From the NCBI GenBank assembly GCA_020443345.1, contig JAGRIH010000001.1:1-64000 (forward strand): DNA of 64,000 nucleotides. The letters are read 5' to 3'. The position numbers and the translations under genes are program-made. Positions 21,208 through 22,231 of this stretch are shown one piece after another (position 1 is the stretch's first letter; each line of letters opens with the position of its first letter). The notes beneath the pieces are model-generated. The model was not told where the DNA came from, ran no database searches, and saw only the letters and a list, made by a program, of their open reading frames with translations. The DNA is from Halioglobus sp. Its GTDB lineage: Bacteria > Pseudomonadota > Gammaproteobacteria > Pseudomonadales > Halieaceae.

Positions 21208-21579
21208 TCAAGCCCAGAGCAACAACTCAAAGGTCAGCCGGAAGTTGGGAGAAGGGGGTTCCTTGCCGTAGGGCAGATCCAGTCCGCGTAGCCGCGACGT
21301 GTTGCGGCCGAAGCGTCGCTGTGTCACCTCTCCGCTGGCCGTCGCGAACCTGACTGTACCGCCGATAACCGCACGGGTCACTGTTGCGCCCTGAATCACG
21401 CTGATGGAGATAGGTACATCGTGCAACAGCTCCGCGCGCTTCTGCGCAGTGACAATAACTTCCTCCAGCTTGCCCAGAGCCGTGGCCGCTGGTGCCGTCA
21501 GCGCCAGGTTCAGAGCGAGGGCGAGCGGCGAGGAACATATGGCGGGTGTTCGCAGAATGGTTTTCACGGAAATTTTCAC
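21208..21579 (-). pseudogene. Chimeric ORF: TonB-receptor N-terminus fused to the C-terminal half of a dirigent/allene-oxide-cyclase-like barrel protein
   Basis: Residues 1 to about 62 are a TonB-receptor start: signal peptide, then LEEVIVTAQKRAELLHDVPISIS. After a junction at about residue 62-67 there is no plug domain. The rest reads AVIGGTVRFATASGEV, the Gly-Gly-Thr hairpin seen in dirigent/allene-oxide-cyclase-like barrels, and ends in [11 protein letters not shown]. The matching N-terminal half of such a protein is on the plus strand at 21812-22231. The 123-codon frame is open throughout, with a GTG start at 21579. It probably arose by inversion and deletion. The product is probably non-functional, but its promoter may drive pobA, 31 nt downstream. 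Confidence 0.65.
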
Positions 21580-21587
21580 CTGTAGTT

Positions 21588-21605
21588 ATTATAGATCGGG
21601 ATCTA
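21588..21605 (-). promoter_or_regulatory. Promoter -10 with overlapping dyad upstream of the chimeric ORF
   Basis: The minus strand carries TATAAT (21593-21588) nine bases before the GTG start. A perfect dyad TAGATC-GG-GATCTA (21592-21605) overlaps it. No convincing -35 is visible. The arrangement suggests a repressor site covering the -10 of what was a TonB-receptor promoter. Confidence 0.45.
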
Positions 21606-21811
21606 ACTGCGAAGTTGTTCGCCTCATTCCCCCGCGGCATGTCGCATTATCTATTGATGCTGACAGTCAAAGCAGCAACCGGCCAATTACTTAATGGCCT
21701 TACGTCATGACATGCAGGTATGTCTTTTCAAGAGCCGATTTTTTTTGTAGCGTGGCCGGACTCTGAGCGCTGCGCGAAGGAGTCAGCAATACAATAATCA
21801 GGAGTAACGCT

Positions 21812-22231
21812 ATGCATGGTATCGGCAGGATTCGCCGGCGCTTTTTGGCTGTGCTGGGCGTAGGCATGGGTGCCGGCGCCCTGTCCAGTTCCGCACTGGC
21901 CGCCGGCAGCAAAGTGTCCGGCAACAAACTGGAAGTGGAGATCGATGTCGCAATCCTGGGTCACACCAATTACGATAACCAGGAGGGAGCCACCAACCGC
22001 CATCCGCACTACGCCAATCAGGTCAAGGACCCTTTGGCGTTTCGCGAGGGCTACCTGCACAGTGACCTGCGCGGCAGCAGTTATTTTCACGAGAGCCTGA
22101 TTTATCCTGCCGGAACGATTCCGCAGCCCAAGGATGGCGGGGACGTCAACTGGAAGTTTGACAGCGAGCCATGGGCACCTTTTTTGATCGCGGATTGGGC
22201 CATTATCAACAACCGCTCCGACGGCCCCTAG
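21812..22231 (+). pseudogene. N-terminal half of a secreted dirigent/allene-oxide-cyclase-like barrel protein
   Basis: The 139-residue frame has an export signal with arginines before the hydrophobic core (RRRFLAVLG, cleavage near ALAAG). A beta-rich segment follows, with LRGSSYFHESLIYPAGTI and INNRSDGP before the stop. It lacks the C-terminal GGT-containing half expected for this fold, and that half appears on the minus strand at 21208 to about 21395. The 22232-22433 gap shows no continuation. It is best read as the 5' part of a gene broken by rearrangement. Alternatively it is a short secreted protein in its own right. Family assignment is from recognition of the fold signature, not a search. 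Confidence 0.5.

Follow-up and report, generated by a model that had tools for sequence, protein, structure and literature searches.

TonB-dependent receptors and an unnamed family of secreted, barrel-like proteins are the closest counterparts of a small divergent locus in Halioglobus sp. The receptors open with a signal peptide, a TonB box after it, and the first residues of the plug domain. Members of the unnamed family combine a signal peptide, a YPAGT motif in the N-terminal half, an R-A-[VI]-x-GGT motif in the C-terminal half, and a TFEL-like end, each member being encoded intact by a single gene of about 180-230 aa. Within the stretch analyzed (64,000 nucleotides, hereafter the window), one of two divergent frames shares the signal peptide, TonB box, and first plug residues with the receptors but has neither the remainder of the plug nor the beta-barrel, ending after 123 residues. 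The hallmarks of the secreted family all recur in the same order, but here they are divided between the two strands, about 35 residues are missing, and the N-terminal region is longer and matches nothing in the family.

The two open reading frames lie at 21579-21208 (minus strand, 123 aa) and 21812-22231 (plus strand, 139 aa), exactly where a first-pass annotation had placed them, with 232 bases between their starts. The inter-start region (21580..21811) has a GC content of 47%, shows no coding match by eye, and would carry the promoters of both divergent genes. An AGGAG at 21800-21804, resembling a Shine-Dalgarno sequence, precedes the plus frame. The minus frame has a second GTG at 21567 with a Shine-Dalgarno-like AGGTGA ahead of it, and this GTG may be the true start. 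To the left lies pobA, encoding 4-hydroxybenzoate 3-monooxygenase (19971..21176, minus strand; TIGR02360, E 3.4e-182), and to the right a gene for a DsbA-like thioredoxin-fold protein (22440..23081, plus strand; PF01323, E 3.1e-7). Both frames lack internal stops, carry start signals, and retain a third-position GC of about 0.7, as would be expected of two ordinary small genes that function as they stand. That reading is nevertheless very unlikely, given that the searches turned up no homologue with either architecture and that each frame matches only part of a longer intact family.

The receptor-like part of the minus frame (21397..21579) comprises a signal peptide, a LEEVIVTAQKR TonB box, and the start of a plug. 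Its first 62 or so residues have matches at 46 further places in the same genome (E up to 10); the strong matches are mostly N-termini of TonB receptors in frames of 700-900 aa, the best at E 2e-8. At the nucleotide level, positions 21374-21465 match TonB receptors of Novosphingobium and Sphingobium (blastn, plasmids), which places the end of receptor similarity near residue 68. The proposal that this frame begins as a TonB receptor is thereby borne out. No Pfam match to the plug (PF07715) or the beta-barrel (PF00593) was obtained in the 123-aa frame, while both models match the intact receptor encoded at 15662-18034 of the window. The point of contact between the two homologies, earlier put near residue 62-67, is located at residues 62-70 (21370..21396, minus strand), where receptor homology stops and barrel homology starts, the family match running from about residue 61-63. 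The same genome holds a further truncated TonB-receptor N-terminus in a 114-residue frame (L018, G000:C62:36541-36675).

Beyond the junction, 21208..21396 encodes, stop codon included, what matches the C-terminal part of the secreted family (VTRAVIGGTVRF...). On the plus strand, 21812..22231 encodes a twin-arginine-like signal peptide and a YPAGT motif and stops after residue 139. It had been advised that the halves be searched separately and then joined, and alone they returned almost nothing. The N-terminal half had no match in 38 relatives and a single chance match (G162) in 369 genomes of the class, and an octapeptide scan with it through the contig collection gave nothing. The C-terminal half had chance matches only among 391 genomes of the order. 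Viral, phage, and plasmid searches with separate pieces of the window retrieved TonB receptors only. The G162 match, those order-level matches to the C-terminal half that were opened, and phylum-level matches to the joined protein were set aside as apparent chance, lying in wrong frames or containing stops.

A joined protein of 199 aa and a version of 201 aa with X for the missing middle served only as search and alignment queries. Placed end to end, the halves gave one weak plasmid match that crosses the joint (tblastn, NZ_CP022420.1, E 10), corresponding to WP_089423454.1, a 183-aa protein of the Pseudosulfitobacter plasmid pSMR1-5. Each half alone then matches this protein, in the correct order: the C-terminal half with 14/35 identities and the N-terminal half, more weakly, with 15/45 identities around YPAGT (E 5e-4 in a single comparison). 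Building out from WP_089423454.1 added WP_171676466.1 (Ruegeria sp. YS9 plasmid) and members from four further genomes, which belong to a single family of the phylum. A profile scan of the contig collection returned one locus, encoding an intact 229-aa protein in Leptolyngbya cf. ectocarpi (L064, 5449-6138), to which the C-terminal half is 44% identical over 41 residues; searched against all open reading frames of the window, the Leptolyngbya protein finds the C-terminal half at E 3e-5 to 4e-5. None of the seven aligned family sequences reaches a Pfam cutoff.

Damaged members of the family occur elsewhere. In G847, a frame change and stops interrupt a second copy (L063/L062, G847:C18:14593-15092); another contig of that genome has an intact one. 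In G036, of the same order as Halioglobus, a lone C-terminal piece (SIPRAITGGTGKYANAQG; L089, 841-1050, G036:C25) ends a 102-residue frame that has no N-terminal half (profile E 4.3e-4).

The assignment of the halves was evaluated with a profile of the seven outside family members, the window being left out, against every stop-to-stop frame of 25 aa or more in the window, 1252 in all. The minus frame ranks first of 1252 (12.8 bits, E 0.0037, profile positions 151-183) and the plus frame second (6.2 bits, E 0.37, profile positions 69-91); the two stretches are complementary, ordered, and free of overlap. Among 25,040 shuffled frames, none scored at least 12.8 bits and five scored at least 6.2 bits. 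Taken with the Leptolyngbya E values, these ranks and shuffles make the family assignment of the C-terminal half firm. The match of the N-terminal half is short and weak by itself, yet beside the C-terminal half it is hard to put down to chance. The comparisons thus support a reading of the two frames as complementary halves of one barrel-like family, with the C-terminal half fused to a TonB-receptor start, as the first-pass annotation had described. Its estimate of about 50 lost barrel codons was too high; in the alignments, the halves are about 32-35 residues apart.

Complementary halves need not descend from one gene. Two family members, either paralogues or a native and an acquired copy, could have been truncated separately, with the TonB fusion an unrelated deletion or insertion joint and no inversion involved. 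The halves have no overlap through which a single-gene origin could be tested, the N-terminal half scores far below the C-terminal half against identical outsiders, and G847 has a second, broken copy of the family. Separate truncation would, however, require more events and would have to leave complementary remnants within 1 kb, and the same genome yielded no further copy of either half. It is a possible but unlikely account.

The names dirigent and allene oxide cyclase have weak scores behind them. The likeness to such barrels is weak and confined to the GGT-containing stretch (PF03018 E 0.14), and the Dirigent model PF03018 scores 11-12 bits (E 0.14-0.37), far under its gathering cutoff of 29.1 bits. 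The nearest solved structure is pyocyanin demethylase (PDB 5k21), which a profile that included the window row matches (E 0.13) at the GGT motif; all these scores fall well short of cutoffs. A single-sequence structure model of the intact Leptolyngbya member has a mean pLDDT of 33. Elsewhere in the genome of the window, a further dirigent-like gene that looks intact has the same motif, as AIIGGTGKYKGARGEV (L002, 1441-2226, G000:C61:65124-65291; hhalign probability 67% over 23 columns). It is reasonable to guess at a dirigent/allene-oxide-cyclase-like barrel as the fold.

How the halves came to lie on opposite strands may be explained by a single inversion. Ancestrally, a gene for the barrel-like secreted protein would have stood on the minus strand, probably immediately upstream of pobA, back to back with a TonB-receptor gene on the plus strand, directed towards dsbA. 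A flip of the segment holding both 5' ends and the intervening region, with one break in each gene, would have joined the receptor start to the barrel end (the chimera at 21579-21208) and, opposite, the barrel start to the rest of the receptor. The flip itself or later events would have removed about 35 barrel codons along with the receptor's remainder. If the stretch between about 21396 and about 22231 were turned back, the N-terminal half would precede the C-terminal half on the minus strand before pobA, and the receptor start would face dsbA from the plus strand. An inversion is the most economical arrangement because both starts look intact while each 3' part has been exchanged or lost. 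The first-pass annotation invoked it for both frames, and the complementary halves and the TonB fusion would agree with that explanation. Taken as a whole, one flip breaking two genes is the account we favor with some confidence.

On the right side of the segment, family similarity fades near a conserved W at residue 130, which suggests a breakpoint zone at 22195..22231 without a clear edge. Comparing the sequence to the right of 22231 with 19 receptor loci of the same genome, and with the left part of the window, brought up no receptor remainder; the best receptor match in 22232-22439 (E 0.002 over 23 residues) is not convincing. Reading the frames of 22221-22445 and 21571-21815 for the missing middle or the receptor remainder revealed no family-like stretch, and no RNA structure was detected to the right of the N-terminal half (z 0.30).

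Repeats bear on how the segment could have turned. No exact inverted word longer than nine bases occurs in 21180-22440, and the longest, at nine bases, is shorter than in most background windows. Inexact inverted arms reach at most 18 nt, and none is paired at both inferred breakpoints. With such short words and no inexact pair at both breaks, repeats are unlikely to have driven either a flip or a misassembly, and an inverton is unlikely too. As a draft of 70 contigs, the genome assembly gives some room for an artefact in which pieces of the contig were wrongly joined or flipped, but the absence of longer inverted words and arms far too short to mislead an assembler make this rather improbable. 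Phase variation by a coding inverton, an invertible switch that swaps the 5' ends of two genes, would have the right geometry in a segment with two divergent 5' ends, and arms at 21369-21384 and 22059-22074 are 88% complementary. The latter arm, however, precedes the YPAGT motif rather than lying at the end of the N-terminal half, the contig has no tyrosine recombinase, no receptor remainder was found to serve as switching partner, and an exact inverted repeat of more than nine bases is again missing; an inverton is extremely improbable. For the favored inversion, an illegitimate event would fit best as the cause. A 15-base exact direct repeat, TTGCCCAGAGCCGTG, is present at 21470-21484 and 22320-22334, against a longest of 14 among 63 equally sized background windows. 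It was rejected as a cause of the inversion, as it lies at neither inferred breakpoint and its direct orientation is the wrong one.

Comparison of synteny, also proposed at the outset, returned no syntenic locus. Among the relatives examined, none carried either piece, either intact gene, or the ancestral order, and an arrangement of both frames as separate intact genes was likewise not found. The neighbors of pobA in four relatives and of the flanking gene xthA in two are different, and for the DsbA-like gene two relatives gave matches, all of them distant. These results count against the inversion, as do the receptor remainder that did not turn up, the short and weak match of the N-terminal half, and the blurred right break.

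The locus is most likely a rearranged and decayed gene pair with a chimeric pseudogene, a case of ordinary gene decay and not a new system, whose products would be non-functional. The broken second copy in G847 and the C-terminal piece in G036 back this reading, since genes of the family decay elsewhere too; the truncated receptor start L018 is related decay within the same genome. The chimera ends 31 bases before the start of pobA on the same strand, and transcription of pobA may for this reason now begin at the former receptor promoter. The surroundings look like a region of aromatic-compound catabolism, with pobA, the receptor at 15662-18034, and, at 3817-5448, what we take to be a UbiD-like decarboxylase in the left part of the window. 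One could go further and suppose that the flip brought pobA under the control of a TonB-receptor promoter, that the in-frame chimera was kept so that transcription and translation run undisturbed, and that the promoter swap was retained for rewiring aromatic-acid catabolism, but so elaborate a scenario is highly improbable.

The YPAGT/GGT family, whose seven aligned sequences all fall below Pfam cutoffs, appears to be dispersed across distant bacteria. If the inversion is right, the locus would be a clear small example of a single flip that breaks two neighboring genes and makes a chimera of them. It would also be a warning, as automatic annotation would give two unrelated hypothetical proteins at this locus.
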